From Gemmatimonadota bacterium (GTDB lineage Bacteria > ARS69), in contig JASLLL010000006.1 in assembly GCA_030747075.1 (NCBI GenBank), positions 47,774 through 111,773 of the forward strand: a DNA stretch of 64,000 nt, written 5' to 3'. This document shows, piece after piece, positions 2,929 to 53,351 of the stretch. Numbering within the stretch: the stretch's first letter is position 1; each line of letters begins with the position of its first letter. Both the position numbers and the translations under genes were made by a program. The notes under the pieces are model-generated. The model was given only the letters and a program-made list of their open reading frames with translations, had not been told where the DNA came from and searched no databases.

Positions 2929-4143
2929 ATGGTGTCCTCCTCTGCTCGTCGGCTGTCCGTCCGGGATCTGAACGCTTCCGGGAAGCGGGTGCTCGTCCGA
3001 TGCGACCTGAATGTGCCGCTCGCGCACGGAGCGGTGGCGGACGGGACGAGGATTCGGGCCAGCCTGCCCACCATCCGCCACCTGACAGAGGCCGGGGCGC
3101 GGGTCATCCTGATGTCGCATCTGGGTCGCCCGAAAGGCCGTGTCGTGCCGGACCTGAGCCTTGCGCCGGTGGCCGGGGAGTTGTCGCGGGAACTGGGGAT
3201 GCCGGTCGCGATGGCGCCGGATTGCGTCGGGCCGGAGGTGATGCGGCTGGCCGCCGAACTGGGCGACGGGGAGGTGCTCCTGCTGGAGAACCTGCGATTC
3301 CACGCAGAGGAGACCGCCAACGAGGAGTCCTTTGCGAAGGGTCTCGCCGCGCTGGCGGATCTGTTCGTGAGTGATGCGTTTGGGACCGCGCATCGCGCAC
3401 ACGCTTCCACGGCAGGCGCGGCCGCGCACTTTGAACAGGCGGCGGCGGGGTTTCTGCTGGAGAAGGAGCTGGCGTTTCTGGGAGGCGCCGTGACGGACCC
3501 GGAGCGGCCGTGCGTGGCCATTCTCGGGGGCGCGAAGATCAGCGGGAAGATGGATGTGCTGGAGAACCTGCTGGATCGGATGGACTCCATTCTCATTGGC
3601 GGGGCGATGGCCGGGACCTTCTTCCGGGCGCTCGGGCTGGAGACGGGGAACAGCCTCGTGGAGGAGGACCGGATCGGGCTGGCGAAGGGGCTTCTCGCAC
3701 GGGCCTCGGAGAACGGCCGGGACCTTCGGCTTCCTGTGGACGGCGTGGTGGCTTCGGCGTTTGATGCCGATGCGGATGCGTCGGTCGTCCCCGTGGGCGA
3801 GATCCCCGTGGATCGCTGGATGCTGGATGTCGGCCCGGAAACCGTGGCGGAGTACCGCAAGGTGATTCTCGGCGCGCGAACCGTCCTCTGGAACGGGCCC
3901 ATGGGTGTTTTTGAGATGGATCGGTTTGCAGAGGGAACGCTGGGCATTGCGCGTGCCATGGCCGAGGCGACGGACCTCGGAGCGACCACGATCATCGGCG
4001 GGGGAGACTCCGCCGCCGCCATTGCGAAGGCCGCGTGCGCGGATCGAGTGAGCCATGTATCGACGGGAGGCGGTGCGTCCCTTGAGTTCCTGGAGGGGAA
4101 ACTCCTTCCCGGCGTGGCGGCCCTGACGGAGGTGAACTCTTGA
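2929..4143 (+). CDS. pgk: Phosphoglycerate kinase
   Basis: It transfers phosphate from 1,3-bisphosphoglycerate to ADP, the first ATP-yielding step of glycolysis (EC 2.7.2.3). The 404 residues match the monomeric bacterial family. Hallmarks run in order: RCDLNVPL near residue 25, SHLGRPKG at the substrate site, [34 protein letters not shown], and the C-terminal nucleotide-site GGGDSAAAI. The start is the ATG one base after the gap stop. The stop TGA overlaps the tpiA TTG start as TTGA, so the two are probably translationally coupled. No anomalies were seen. Confidence 0.97.
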
Positions 4144-48478: not shown

Positions 48479-51046
48479 GTGAAGTCGAGGGGTGGGCGGG
48501 GGAGTCTCCGGAGGTGGCTGACCGCGGGCGGCACGGCCGTTGTGGCGTTCTTCGGGTTGCCTCTCCCGTGCTGTGGCGTCCCCACTCCGCAGTTTGAGCG
48601 CGAGCTGGACACCATCCTCGTGATCGATGGATGGGGACCGGTGGAGCGCGCCTGGTATGGCGGATGGGAGAAGGCTCGGCCGCAGTTCGTGGACATCGAT
48701 GCGGACGGAGACGCGGATCTTTTCGTGAACGAGGAGGACGGGAAGCTCCGCTTCTATCGCAATACGGGGACCCCCGCCGCGGCGGCCTATTCACTGGTGA
48801 CAGACGAATACTCCGGCGTCCACCGGTACTTCTGGTCGCGATTCGTGGACATGGATGCCGATGGCGATGCGGACCTCCTGGTGGAGGATCGTCCGCCGGA
48901 CGGGAGTTCCTCGCTCGGCTTCCTTCTCCACAATACCGGCCCCGCCGAGTCCCCATCCTTCGAAAACCTCTCGGACCATCCGGACGGGCATTGGACGGAT
49001 GATGCCGGGGTGCCCATCCCGTTCTTTCTGGCCACCCCCGGTTTTGCGGACATCGACCGGGACGGGGACATGGACCTTCTCATGGGGGATGGATCGAATC
49101 AGGGGTCCGTCATCCTCTACCGCAACGAGGGCGGGCCGGGCTCCGCGGTCATGCATCGGGAAACGGACAGCTACCAGGACATTTCGATCGTGTTCGGGTC
49201 GTGCAATCCGGAGCGCGGCGCATCTCCCGCGCAGACGCCTCCGGGCGGCCGACACGGGTTCATGTTGTTCTCCTTCGAGGACCTGACGGCGGACGGAAAC
49301 CCGGACCTGTTCGTCGGGGACCAGTTCAATCCGAATGTGTACTTCTGGGAGGGCACGGGGGGGCCGCCGGATCCGGGATTCACCTGTCGTACGGAAGCCT
49401 ACTTCACCGACGAGTTCGGGCAACCCGCCGTCTATGCGCAGTACATTCTCTCCTCCTTTGCGGATCTTGATGCGGACGGGGATCTCGACGCCGTGCTGGG
49501 TGCGGGCACCGGGCACGACGGACTGGTGTACTACGCCAACTTCGGCACGCCGTCTTTCCCGTTCCATCGTCTGGAGTCCGACGACTGGCTTGGTGAGTTC
49601 GATCGCGGACAGAACACCTGCCCGGCGGCGGCGGATCTGGATCTGGACGGAGACCCGGACCTTCTGCTCGGGGTGGGGACCGGCCAGCGCGTGGAGTATT
49701 ACAGCAACGAAGGCTCTGCGGACTCCCCCCTGTACGCCGTCATCAACCCGAGCTGGATTTCGCTTCCCGGAAGCGACTGGGCGGCCCCGGAGGTTGCGGA
49801 TCTCGATGGGGACGGAGACATGGATGTGTTCGTCGGCACCTCCGAGGGGGGAATCCGGTACTGGAGGAACACCCGCAACGGGCCGGGAGAGCCGCTTCTT
49901 GCCGAGGTGACGGATCACCCGGACTTCGGAGACGCCATGGGCTGTCTTTTCGCGGACGCGCTGGATGCTGCGGCGGTTCCGCGTTTTGTGGACCTTGACG
50001 CGGACGGGGATCTGGATGTGCTGGTCGGAAGCTGGTCCTTTTCCGAGGAGACCGCCCATCTGGCGTCCTTCCGGAATGTCGGGTCATCCACGGCACCTTC
50101 GTTCGAACTGTGGAGTACGGACTTTCACCAGCTCGGTCCTCTCGGGCAGAGTGCCGCTCCGGCCGTCGCCGATCTGGATGCGGACGGCGACCCGGACATT
50201 CTGGTCGGTTCCCGCGATGGTGGAATCCTCTTCTTCGCAAACGAGGGGACCTCCGCGCACCCGGCGTTCGCTCCGGCCGGAATGGAACTCTCCGGGCTGG
50301 ATGTCGGGGCGCGTTCGGTCCCGACCCTTGCGGATCTGGATGCGGACGGAGATCTCGATCTGGTCGTGGGGGAGTCGGGGGGCGGCTGGAACCTCTTCCG
50401 CAACTCGATGCCGGAAGATGCTCCGCCTGCGGCCTTCGCGCTGGACACCCCTTCGAACGGAACCTCCGCTGGCGTGCGGGAGCCGGTTCACTTCGCCTGG
50501 GAATCCTCGATCGACCCCGACGACCTCACTGAAGCCGTCTACGATCTGCGCCTGGCCGCTTCTCCGGATGCGCCCATCTCGGAGTGGGCTCTTGTGGAGG
50601 GACTGACCGACAGCCGGGTCACGCTGGTTCCGTCCCGCGACGGGCCTGCTGGAGCCGAGGAGATCTGGTGGACCGTATGCGCCCGCTCCGGAGAGCGGAA
50701 CGCTCCCGTCCCCCAGTGGAGGCGTCTCGTCATCGATTCCGTTCCGGTCCTGCCCGACAGCATCTCCGTGGGCTTCCAGCTGGAGAGCCCACGGCCCTCG
50801 CCCTTTGCCGCGTCCACCGTGATCCGGTTTGAGACCGCGGACAGACAGCGGGTCCGCCTCACGGTGCTGGATGCGGCGGGAAGGAGAGTGGCGGTTCTGG
50901 TCGACGGACTTCGGGGGAGCGGGCCGCACAAGATCGTCTGGGACGGTCGGACTTCCGGTGGCGGGACCGTGGCGCCCGGGGTGTACCTCCTCCGGCTGGA
51001 GGCCGGGGGCAAGACCACCACGCGTCGCGTCGTCCGGGTCCGATGA
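48479..51046 (+). CDS. Secreted VCBS/FG-GAP repeat protein with FlgD-like C-terminal domain
   Basis: A repeat protein of about 855 residues. Ten Ca-binding-style motifs of the form DxDxDGDxDL recur about every 60-70 residues (DIDADGDADL, DMDADGDADL, DIDRDGDMDL, DLDADGDLDA, DLDGDGDMDV and so on), building an integrin-like beta-propeller. A fibronectin-like region follows at about 650-760. The last 85 residues are the FlgD-like tail (AAGRRVAVLV, WDGRTSGGG, GVYLLRLE, RRVVRVR). The start is uncertain: GTG at 48479 or TTG at 48461, neither with a clear Shine-Dalgarno, and both lead into an Arg-rich signal-like segment. It is coupled to the pseudokinase gene by ATGA. Confidence 0.83.
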   Translation: MKSRGGRGSLRRWLTAGGTAVVAFFGLPLPCCGVPTPQFERELDTILVIDGWGPVERAWYGGWEKARPQFVDIDADGDADLFVNEEDGKLRFYRNTGTPAAAAYSLVTDEYSGVHRYFWSRFVDMDADGDADLLVEDRPPDGSSSLGFLLHNTGPAESPSFENLSDHPDGHWTDDAGVPIPFFLATPGFADIDRDGDMDLLMGDGSNQGSVILYRNEGGPGSAVMHRETDSYQDISIVFGSCNPERGASPAQTPPGGRHGFMLFSFEDLTADGNPDLFVGDQFNPNVYFWEGTGGPPDPGFTCRTEAYFTDEFGQPAVYAQYILSSFADLDADGDLDAVLGAGTGHDGLVYYANFGTPSFPFHRLESDDWLGEFDRGQNTCPAAADLDLDGDPDLLLGVGTGQRVEYYSNEGSADSPLYAVINPSWISLPGSDWAAPEVADLDGDGDMDVFVGTSEGGIRYWRNTRNGPGEPLLAEVTDHPDFGDAMGCLFADALDAAAVPRFVDLDADGDLDVLVGSWSFSEETAHLASFRNVGSSTAPSFELWSTDFHQLGPLGQSAAPAVADLDADGDPDILVGSRDGGILFFANEGTSAHPAFAPAGMELSGLDVGARSVPTLADLDADGDLDLVVGESGGGWNLFRNSMPEDAPPAAFALDTPSNGTSAGVREPVHFAWESSIDPDDLTEAVYDLRLAASPDAPISEWALVEGLTDSRVTLVPSRDGPAGAEEIWWTVCARSGERNAPVPQWRRLVIDSVPVLPDSISVGFQLESPRPSPFAASTVIRFETADRQRVRLTVLDAAGRRVAVLVDGLRGSGPHKIVWDGRTSGGGTVAPGVYLLRLEAGGKTTTRRVVRVR

Positions 51047-51900
51047 CCCGCCCCGACCTGTCCTTCGGGCCGTTTCGGATTCTCGAACGGCACGATCTCC
51101 CCGGGGACGCCTTCGACGCCGCGGCAAAGGAGCGGGAATCAGGCCGCGAAGTGCGCCTCTGGGCCGGAATCCCCGGGAGCGCCGAACCGCGCCAGGGGCG
51201 GCCGCACCCGGATGAGGTTCGCGCGGGGTTGTCGCGCGTGTATCACTCGTCCCTGCCGAAGGTCCTGCGAACGGAGACCATCGAAGAGCGGGCGGTACTC
51301 GTTCTGCAGCCCTGTCGTGGGCGCACGCTGTCGGAGGTGCTGGCCGAAGCCCCCCCGGTGGACCCTCTGCGCGCCCTGTCGATCGTGGAGTCGCTCGGGG
51401 CTGCTCTGGCGAAGGCCCATCGGGCGGGGTTCTGCCACGGGCATCTGGACGAAGACGCGGTGCTTCTTGACGAGGGCGGGAAGACGATGCTCCTTCGTGT
51501 CGGATGGTGGCCGTTTCTCGGGAGCCGCCCGCCTCTCGCGCCCGAGGACCTCGGCGGAGGAGAGCCGAGGCCTTCCGCGGATGTCTTTGCGCTGGCCAGA
51601 CTGCTCGCCCGGCTCCTTCTTCCCGAAGATCCCTGCGGCACCGGAGAGGCGGCTCTCCGCGCCTGTTCAGAGGGCCCGGACCCGGCCGTGATGCCGACTC
51701 ACCTCCCTGAGGGGCTCCGCCGTTTCCTCGCTCGGGCGCTCCTGCCCGTCCCGAACCAGCGCATCGCAAGGGCGGACGAACTCACCGGCGACCTGCGCGT
51801 GATTCGGGCCTCCTGGGCGTCTCTGGCCACGGATTCGGCCTCCCGCGGCGGTTGGAAGGCCTCTCTGCCGCGCTGGCTGTCGCCCGGAAAAGGCCGTTGA
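51043..51900 (+). CDS. Degenerate Ser/Thr protein kinase-like protein (pseudokinase)
   Basis: A soluble 285-residue protein whose order of elements follows a bacterial Ser/Thr kinase but whose catalytic residues are lost. The opening FGPFRILERHDLPGDAFDAA lacks the Gly-rich loop, and REVRLWAGIPG replaces the VAIK lysine. The HRD-type loop reads CHGHLDEDAVLL with no catalytic Asp or Asn, and the DFG position reads RVGWWPF. C-lobe features survive (APEDLGGGE ... PSADVFALARLLARLL, and a late PNQRIARADEL). It probably binds rather than phosphorylates. It is translationally coupled (ATGA) to the VCBS-repeat secreted protein. Confidence 0.7.
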   Translation: MTRPDLSFGPFRILERHDLPGDAFDAAAKERESGREVRLWAGIPGSAEPRQGRPHPDEVRAGLSRVYHSSLPKVLRTETIEERAVLVLQPCRGRTLSEVLAEAPPVDPLRALSIVESLGAALAKAHRAGFCHGHLDEDAVLLDEGGKTMLLRVGWWPFLGSRPPLAPEDLGGGEPRPSADVFALARLLARLLLPEDPCGTGEAALRACSEGPDPAVMPTHLPEGLRRFLARALLPVPNQRIARADELTGDLRVIRASWASLATDSASRGGWKASLPRWLSPGKGR

Positions 51901-51915
51901 AGGCGGATTTCCGTG

Positions 51916-51945
51916 TTGACTCCCCTCGCCTCCTGTCCCCATGAT
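51916..51945 (+). promoter_or_regulatory. Promoter of the histone-fold gene
   Basis: TTGACT (51916-51921, five of six), an 18-base spacer and CATGAT (51940-51945, four of six). Transcription would begin near 51952, giving a leader of about 70 bases. A small hairpin GGCCC-CGAAA-GGGCC (51947-51961) spans the start. Confidence 0.6.
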
Positions 51946-52023
51946 CGGCCCCGAAAGGGCCATTCAGGCCATCTTTGATCCCGGAAGAGCCCCGAATCAC
52001 AGGGGCAATCAGGAGAAATCCAC

Positions 52024-52200
52024 ATGGCAGACACTCTTGTTGTCCAGTCGAAGATTCGTGAGCTCATCAAGGAGCAGGGCTGTTCCACGAGCCAGGACGC
52101 CGTCGACAAGCTCTCCTCGGAAGTGACCCGAGTCGTCATGAAGGCCGTGGAGCGGACGAAGGCGAACGGTCGGAAGACCGTCAAGGGGTCCGATATCTAG
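52024..52200 (+). CDS. Bacterial histone-fold protein (DUF1931-type)
   Basis: A 58-residue single-domain histone-fold protein. It reads as a short helix 1 (TLVVQSKIRELIKEQG), loop CSTS, a long helix 2 (QDAVDKLSSEVTRVVMKAV ... RTKANG), then the hallmark second loop GRKTVK and a very short helix 3 (GSDI). The N-terminal ADTLVVQSK and the AKANGRKTV region closely resemble DUF1931 proteins and the Bdellovibrio histone Bd0055, which dimerise and bind DNA. The ATG follows AGGAG at eight bases. It has its own promoter and an intrinsic terminator, fitting an abundant nucleoid protein. The stop is shared palindromically with rlmN. Confidence 0.85.
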   Translation: MADTLVVQSKIRELIKEQGCSTSQDAVDKLSSEVTRVVMKAVERTKANGRKTVKGSDI

Positions 52201-53351
52201 TCTGACCGAGGCCTGGGAGTGTCTTTCGGGGGGTGTGGCAAGTCCGCGCCCCCCGTCTTTTGTGCATTCTCCCCGCACAGCTGTCCACAGGCGGCCGAGA
52301 TATCCGGCCCCATGCTCCAGCGAACCGTGACTGCCGGGGATCCCGGAAGAAGGATGGTTGCGAACTCATCCACCCGAGCCCGATCCGGACGCTTCAGTTC
52401 CGGAGAGGCTCCCGGATTGTAGGGGATGAGGTTCACCTTGAAGGGGCCGTTCCGGACCAGCGCCATGAGCCGCTTCGCATCCGCATCCGAGTCGTTGATG
52501 CCGCGAATGAGAACATACTCCACCGTCACCCGGCGTTTCGTGTCCCGGGCGTAGGCGGCTGCCGCTTTCATGAGATCCGGAATGGGTGTCCGCGCCGCAC
52601 GGGGCATGATCCGGGCGCGGACCTCCTCGGTGGTCGCGTTCAGCGAGATGGCCAGCCCGACCCCGACCCCGGACGCAGCCAGTTTCCTGATCCCGGGCAG
52701 AACCCCCGCGGTGGAGATCGTCAGCCGCCTCGGGCCGAAGTTGAGCCCGAGCGGTGACTGAAGAATGCGCAGTGCCCGCAGCAGCGCGTCGACATTGTGG
52801 AGCGGCTCTCCCATGCCCATGAAGACAATGTTCGTCCGGATCTTCCGGTCCCGGACTCTTCGCCACAGCGGCAGTATCTGACCCAGGATCTCGTGCTGAT
52901 TCAGGTTCCGCTCAAAACCCATCCCCGCCGTCTGGCAGAACACGCAGTCGAGTGTGCAGCCGACCTGCGTGGACACGCAGAGCGTGATTCGGCGCGCTGC
53001 CGTCATGAGCACGGATTCCACCGAAGCACCGTCCTCCAGCCGGAAGAGGAACTTCTCGGAGCCATCGACCTTCGACACCCGGTGGGCGGCCGTCGTCAGC
53101 TCATCCAGACGAAACCGGCGGTCGAGTTTCGCTCTCAGGTCCAGCGAAAGATCGGTCATCTCGTCGAAGGAGGTGGCGGTCCGGTCGAAGAGCCACCGGG
53201 CGATCTGGCGAAATCGGTACTCCGGGAGTCCGAGACCGGAGACGGCCGCCTGCAACTCCGCCAGGGACAGCGAACGGAGGTCGGGTCGGGGGCTGAGAGC
53301 GGGCTCGGAAATCACAGGATTGAATCCGTTGCGCAAGAGGTGCGGAGACAC
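52197..53351 (-). CDS. rlmN: Dual-specificity 23S rRNA / tRNA adenine-C2 methyltransferase RlmN
   Basis: A radical-SAM enzyme that methylates A2503 of 23S rRNA and A37 of some tRNAs (EC 2.1.1.192). About 384 residues. The 4Fe-4S cluster motif is CTLDCVFC. The methyl-carrying cysteines are in the C-terminal AACGQLCGEN and in the region after FMGMGEPLHNVD. RRLTISTAGVLP and GLAISLNAT are family motifs. The start is uncertain: GTG at 53351 or GTG at 53315, neither with a good ribosome-binding site. The last 65 codons include a Pro/Arg-rich tail antisense to the histone terminator. Confidence 0.95.
   Translation of the reverse strand: MSPHLLRNGFNPVISEPALSPRPDLRSLSLAELQAAVSGLGLPEYRFRQIARWLFDRTATSFDEMTDLSLDLRAKLDRRFRLDELTTAAHRVSKVDGSEKFLFRLEDGASVESVLMTAARRITLCVSTQVGCTLDCVFCQTAGMGFERNLNQHEILGQILPLWRRVRDRKIRTNIVFMGMGEPLHNVDALLRALRILQSPLGLNFGPRRLTISTAGVLPGIRKLAASGVGVGLAISLNATTEEVRARIMPRAARTPIPDLMKAAAAYARDTKRRVTVEYVLIRGINDSDADAKRLMALVRNGPFKVNLIPYNPGASPELKRPDRARVDEFATILLPGSPAVTVRWSMGPDISAACGQLCGENAQKTGGADLPHPPKDTPRPRSD
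52227..52261 (+). terminator. Intrinsic terminator of the histone-fold gene
   Basis: CGGGGGG (52227-52233) pairs with CCCCCCG (52249-52255), followed by TCTTTT. It lies 26 bases after the histone stop, inside the antisense 3' end of rlmN. Confidence 0.6.

Follow-up and report, generated by a model that had tools for sequence, protein, structure and literature searches.

Described FtF and dimeric histones

The alpha3 histones are split into several groups. In one of these, the face-to-face (FtF) histones, R48 and N52 (numbering of the family profile) mediate tetramer formation; bacterial dimers such as Bd0055 lack both residues (PMC11390915). In the crystal of HLp, the bacterial FtF histone of Leptospira perolatii (PDB 9QT0-9QT2), R49, N53, and R55 form the tetramer and the pair R55-D62 clamps loop 2; the HLp tetramer, the wrapping of ~60 bp of DNA, and the effect on the nucleoid were determined experimentally (PMC12701072). 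In Leptospira the FtF histone occurs in the absence of HU, whereas in Bdellovibrio histones coexist with HU (PMC12701072). Bd0055/HBb of Bdellovibrio (PDB 8FVX, 8CMP) forms dimers only and bends DNA. The bacterial FtF histones described so far come mostly from Spirochaetota, Planctomycetota, Bdellovibrionota, and Myxococcota, and an N-terminal tail is common in them but not in archaeal FtF histones (PMC11390915). The lineage studied here is unnamed in the main texts of PMC11390915 and PMC12701072, the individual genomes being listed in their supplements.

A small histone with a truncated alpha3 helix

The window, that is, the whole 64,000-nucleotide stretch analysed, comes from a genome of the phylum designated ARS69 in GTDB and contains the following gene.

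52024-52200, plus strand: histone gene, 58 amino acids, single alpha3-truncated histone fold with the FtF residues R44, N48, R50, and D57 (sequence and predicted structure)

The product of this ORF is MADTLVVQSKIRELIKEQGCSTSQDAVDKLSSEVTRVVMKAVERTKANGRKTVKGSDI (58 residues), in which the GRKTV loop was found as the initial annotation had described it. By phmmer, the product matched Bd0055 (9.4e-11), HBb (1.1e-10), HLp (8.6e-9), and HTkC (3.2e-5) in the PDB. Its score with Pfam PF00808 was below threshold (E 0.0019, 18.9 bits vs a cut-off of 21.4), as was that with NCBIfam archaea_histone (NF043032; 4.7e-6, 26.9 of 50 bits), and no match to DUF1931 was obtained in the Pfam profile search. Hence, when both families were searched as the initial annotation had proposed, the histone side gave a weak, sub-threshold hit and the DUF1931 side gave none. 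Since the PF00808 search over the five genomes of the phylum returned zero matches, this profile misses histones of this sort.

The AlphaFold monomer model, for which 45 related sequences were used, had a mean pLDDT of 91.3 and consisted of alpha1 (residues 8-17), alpha2 (24-47), and alpha3 (54-56), the last being one turn of 3 residues. The best Foldseek match of the model was HLp (TM 0.92/0.96, 0.7 A), followed by HBb/Bd0055 (within 0.8 A) and HTkC, with the nucleosomal histones more distant. The ORF is not a chance one, because it has the above PDB matches, orthologues in three more genera, and a between-genera pN/pS of 0.16-0.34. These results indicate that 52024-52200 (+) is a genuine small histone whose monomer fold is settled, so that the stand-alone bacterial histone fold first read from the sequence is borne out both by PDB matches of ~1e-10 and by the AlphaFold/Foldseek fold. 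We infer that the protein forms a dimer. The loop 1 cysteine C20 (window 52081-52083; GCST/GCNT) was kept in most of the FtF relatives compared and was absent from HLp and Bd0055.

Residues of the FtF tetramer type

In the alignment, R49, N53, R55, and D62 of HLp corresponded to R44, N48, R50, and D57 of the window histone, and the FtF markers R48 and N52 of the profile were thus present as R44 and N48. The RxTxxxxD motif (RD clamp) with the alpha1 lysine was found as R50, T52, D57, and K10/K16, and the predicted structure had the FtF form, namely a single fold, a shortened alpha2 (24-47), and an alpha3 cut to 3-4 residues (54-56). The RKTxxxD motif and alpha1 lysines of the bacterial dimers were also present; they are common to FtF histones and hence do not discriminate, whereas the absence of R48 and N52 that marks the bacterial dimers was not observed. 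Archaeal nucleosomal histones differ in that the window histone fell below both the PF00808 and NF043032 cut-offs and has a short alpha3. From these residues, the window histone is placed on the FtF side, that is, with the predicted tetramers and not with the Bd0055 kind of dimer. Bd0055, which the initial annotation had taken as the functional model, is not the best one, because it has S and D at positions occupied by FtF tetramer residues in the window histone. The likeness to DUF1931 claimed there also failed: DUF1931 proteins such as AQ328 of Aquifex share the histone superfamily with the window histone but are pseudodimers with two fused folds per chain, compared with 58 residues here. 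In the PDB, HLp is called "DUF1931 domain-containing protein", a name that comes from annotation only.

HLp and the window histone are alike in fold, length, truncated alpha3, the R/N/R tetramer residues, the RD clamp, and the S-K and K of alpha1. They differ in that identity is 44%, the window histone has no N-terminal tail, T56 of HLp loop 2 is replaced by K, and the last residue differs (I vs F). The FtF histones of Iainarchaeota (Diapherotrites) and HTkC of Thermococcus (PDB 9F2C) resemble the window histone in being tail-less and in having the R..N.RKT loop; the former reach 62% identity although their hosts are archaeal, and the latter, also of an archaeal host, is ~38% identical with E at the N48 position. 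Beyond the phylum, the nearest relatives were those of Iainarchaeota and some deltaproteobacterial MAGs (57%), and the R..N pair was found there too.

Genomes with two paralogues gave the same division. In a Bdellovibrionales MAG, the copy resembling Bd0055 had N/D and the other, FtF copy had R/N; in a Myxococcales MAG, the bacterial-dimer type had A/D and the FtF type R/N. The search for related loci included KANGRKTV among its words, and the constancy of N48 among these loci is therefore partly a selection effect; the R..N pair was nevertheless present in all four genera of the phylum that carry the gene, two of which (G001 and G004, with KGNGRKTV) were recovered by an independent search without that word.

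Conservation and genomic neighbourhood

The genes flanking the histone are as follows.

51043-51900, plus strand: kinase-fold protein with degenerate catalytic motifs, upstream neighbour, beside the histone in four genera
52197-53351, minus strand: rlmN (23S rRNA methyltransferase), convergent downstream neighbour, conserved beside the histone

The sample of the phylum, which may correspond to one of the FCB lineages in PMC9727166, comprised five genomes of one family. Orthologues 68-72% identical to the window histone were found in three further genera, at one copy per genome in four of the five genomes, and the order of the kinase-like gene directly upstream, the histone, and the convergent rlmN was identical in all four genera. 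The pN/pS values given above show that the histone is under purifying selection. The fifth genome (G002, 67% complete) contained no histone. A loss of the gene was considered for this genome and rejected, because rlmN and a close orthologue of the kinase-like neighbour were missing as well; at this completeness the locus is simply absent from the assembly, and the histone was present in 4/4 genomes in which the neighbourhood is assembled. In the family tree, which was calculated from 58-60 columns and is mostly unresolved, the four genera grouped together with a support of 91; the tree is too weak for a firm placement of the histone or for deciding on a transfer from archaea. Taken together, the orthologues, constant gene order, pN/pS, and grouping in this weak tree suggest that the histone is old and has been kept vertically in the phylum.

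The kinase-fold neighbour scored below the PF00069 cut-off and has HGHLDEDAV in place of HRDxxxxN and VGWWPF near the DFG position. Within window 52197-52262, the stop codon of the histone shares 4 nt with the terminal part of the convergent rlmN ORF, and the terminator-like hairpin described below also lies there.

Promoter, leader, and terminator-like hairpin

The following signals were located around the histone gene.

51916-51921, plus strand: promoter -35 box TTGACT, with a conserved G before it (promoter scan and comparison of genera)
51940-51945, plus strand: promoter -10 box CATGAT, CATSAT in four genera, after an 18-bp spacer (scan and comparison of genera)
51946-52023, plus strand: 5' leader of ~70 nt from a presumed transcription start (comparison of genera)
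52011-52016, plus strand: Shine-Dalgarno sequence AGGAGA, 7 nt before the ATG (read from the sequence)
52227-52262, plus strand: terminator-like hairpin with a T-rich tail, within the 3'-terminal part of rlmN on the opposite strand (scan)

TTGACT-N18-CATGAT (51916-51945) was the sole site in the 1.4 kb scanned, where 0.1 was expected. GTTGAC-N17/18-CATSAT was found upstream of the histone in 4/4 genera, with the boxes ~75-110 bases before the start codon; the rest of the upstream region was poorly conserved, the leader being similar in length but not in sequence. Over the five genomes this pattern occurred 7 times (one or two per genome), 4 of them at the histone, and the reversed control pattern occurred twice. 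Since TTGACT-N17-TAGATT is found at the rRNA operon of this genome and the -35 box is thus shared, a housekeeping sigma factor probably reads both promoters. These sequences support a separate histone transcript from a conserved sigma-70-type promoter. Accordingly, the promoter and the Shine-Dalgarno sequence proposed in the initial annotation both stand, the former with conservation across four genera, whereas of its intrinsic terminator only the hairpin does: the 12-pair stem (52227-52255) is in place, but as a terminator it is weakly supported, because ~0.9 such hairpins are expected by chance in the stretch scanned (shuffled background) and the scanner found one in 1/3 relatives (background 0.2-0.5). 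This hairpin sits in the poorly conserved C-terminus of rlmN.

HU/IHF genes and the proposed role of the histone

When HU/IHF genes were sought, as had been suggested for this genome, three were found above the Pfam cut-off, and the four relatives had two or three each. Two of the three lie <1 kb apart (L096, G000:C31, ~2645-2912 and 3494-3757), and a similar close pair was observed in G001 to G004. Because of these three genes, the histone is not the sole nucleoid protein, a difference from Leptospira, the HU-less host of HLp; the histone probably works beside HU, adding to it. By codon usage the histone ranked in the top 4% of pieces; ribosomal-protein pieces and the background, which includes doubtful ORFs, were <1 SD apart, so that this test has low power and the rank is only suggestive of high expression.

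In the mechanism that we consider quite likely, the protein is an FtF alpha3 histone that forms a closed tetramer holding ~60 bp of DNA, is expressed alone, and supplements HU/IHF as an accessory nucleoid protein. Two monomers would pair via their crossed alpha2 helices, and a pair of such dimers would close into the tetramer by contacts of the alpha2 end, loop 2, and the short alpha3, with R44, N48, and R50 of one dimer facing the opposing C-terminus; it is on these residues that the predicted assembly rests. K10, R12, K16, T22, K51, and T52 would line the rim of the tetramer and hold the DNA without sequence preference, and expression would start at the conserved sigma-70-type promoter. A homotetramer with DNA wrapped non-specifically round its rim, as in HLp, is thus the likely form. 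The proposal builds on the histone fold, its residues, their conservation, and the promoter sequence, and it is by homology with HLp that we infer the tetramer, the wrapping, and the nucleoid role.

Alternatively, the protein may stay dimeric like Bd0055/HBb and bend DNA or coat it end-on. Bd0055 gave the top phmmer score and, in plain identity, stands slightly above HLp (50% vs 44%); its fold, RKTV loop, S9-K10 motif, and RD clamp are shared. However, this identity lies mostly in the common N-terminus and GRKTV loop, the extra loop 1 residue of Bd0055 is missing here, R44 and N48 are present and conserved while bacterial dimers lack these markers (PMC11390915), and the nearest relatives outside the phylum also have the R..N pair, which together make a dimeric histone unlikely. 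The archaeal origin of the closest of these relatives could instead point to a chimeric contig or archaeal contamination, that is, to a histone that is not bacterial. This is extremely improbable and is refuted by the synteny, since four independent genomes, each of a different genus, share the bacterial neighbourhood of the kinase-like gene and rlmN; moreover, the contig is 112 kb long, and its genome has a completeness of 100%, a contamination of 0.96%, and a bacterial 16S gene.

It is also conceivable, although we regard it as rather unlikely, that this histone-fold protein is expressed at a low level and has a local or regulatory role outside chromatin, e.g. as a specific DNA-binding partner or an HU partner. 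The genome already contains the HU/IHF genes, and the survey authors warned that not every prokaryotic histone-fold protein need organise genomes (PMC11390915). Against such a role, the gene stands alone with its own conserved promoter and a strong ribosome-binding site, its product has no fused domain and keeps most of the DNA-contact residues of HLp, and it is conserved across genera.

A whole bacterial phylum outside the usual FtF list might combine a tail-less tetrameric histone of archaeal style with several HU/IHF proteins in organising its chromosome, and its nucleoid would then contain wrapped as well as bent DNA; we hold this wider view with slightly less than even confidence. The protein itself is of a known kind, found in an additional lineage, another small and little-known phylum. 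A vertically kept, tail-less FtF histone beside HU/IHF is a natural counterpart to Leptospira with its histone without HU, and makes it testable whether HU must be absent for an FtF histone to be the main chromatin protein.

Other histones among the related loci

Besides an R/N FtF copy, two Elusimicrobia MAGs (L130 and L132) each encode another histone paralogue, in which loop 2 carries one inserted residue (GKKKTLGVEDL) and the FtF positions are K/E. In a MAG labelled Chloroflexi (L018, L024), two FtF histones were near-identical to those of Diapherotrites, and binning contamination is likely. In three further MAGs, two labelled Euryarchaeota and one labelled bacterium, a single ORF encoded head-to-tail fused FtF-type folds, both with an ANGRKTV-like loop, which are possible FtF pseudodimers.

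L034:5001-5400: fused FtF-type pair
L040:5001-5400: fused FtF-type pair
L074:5001-5400: fused FtF-type pair
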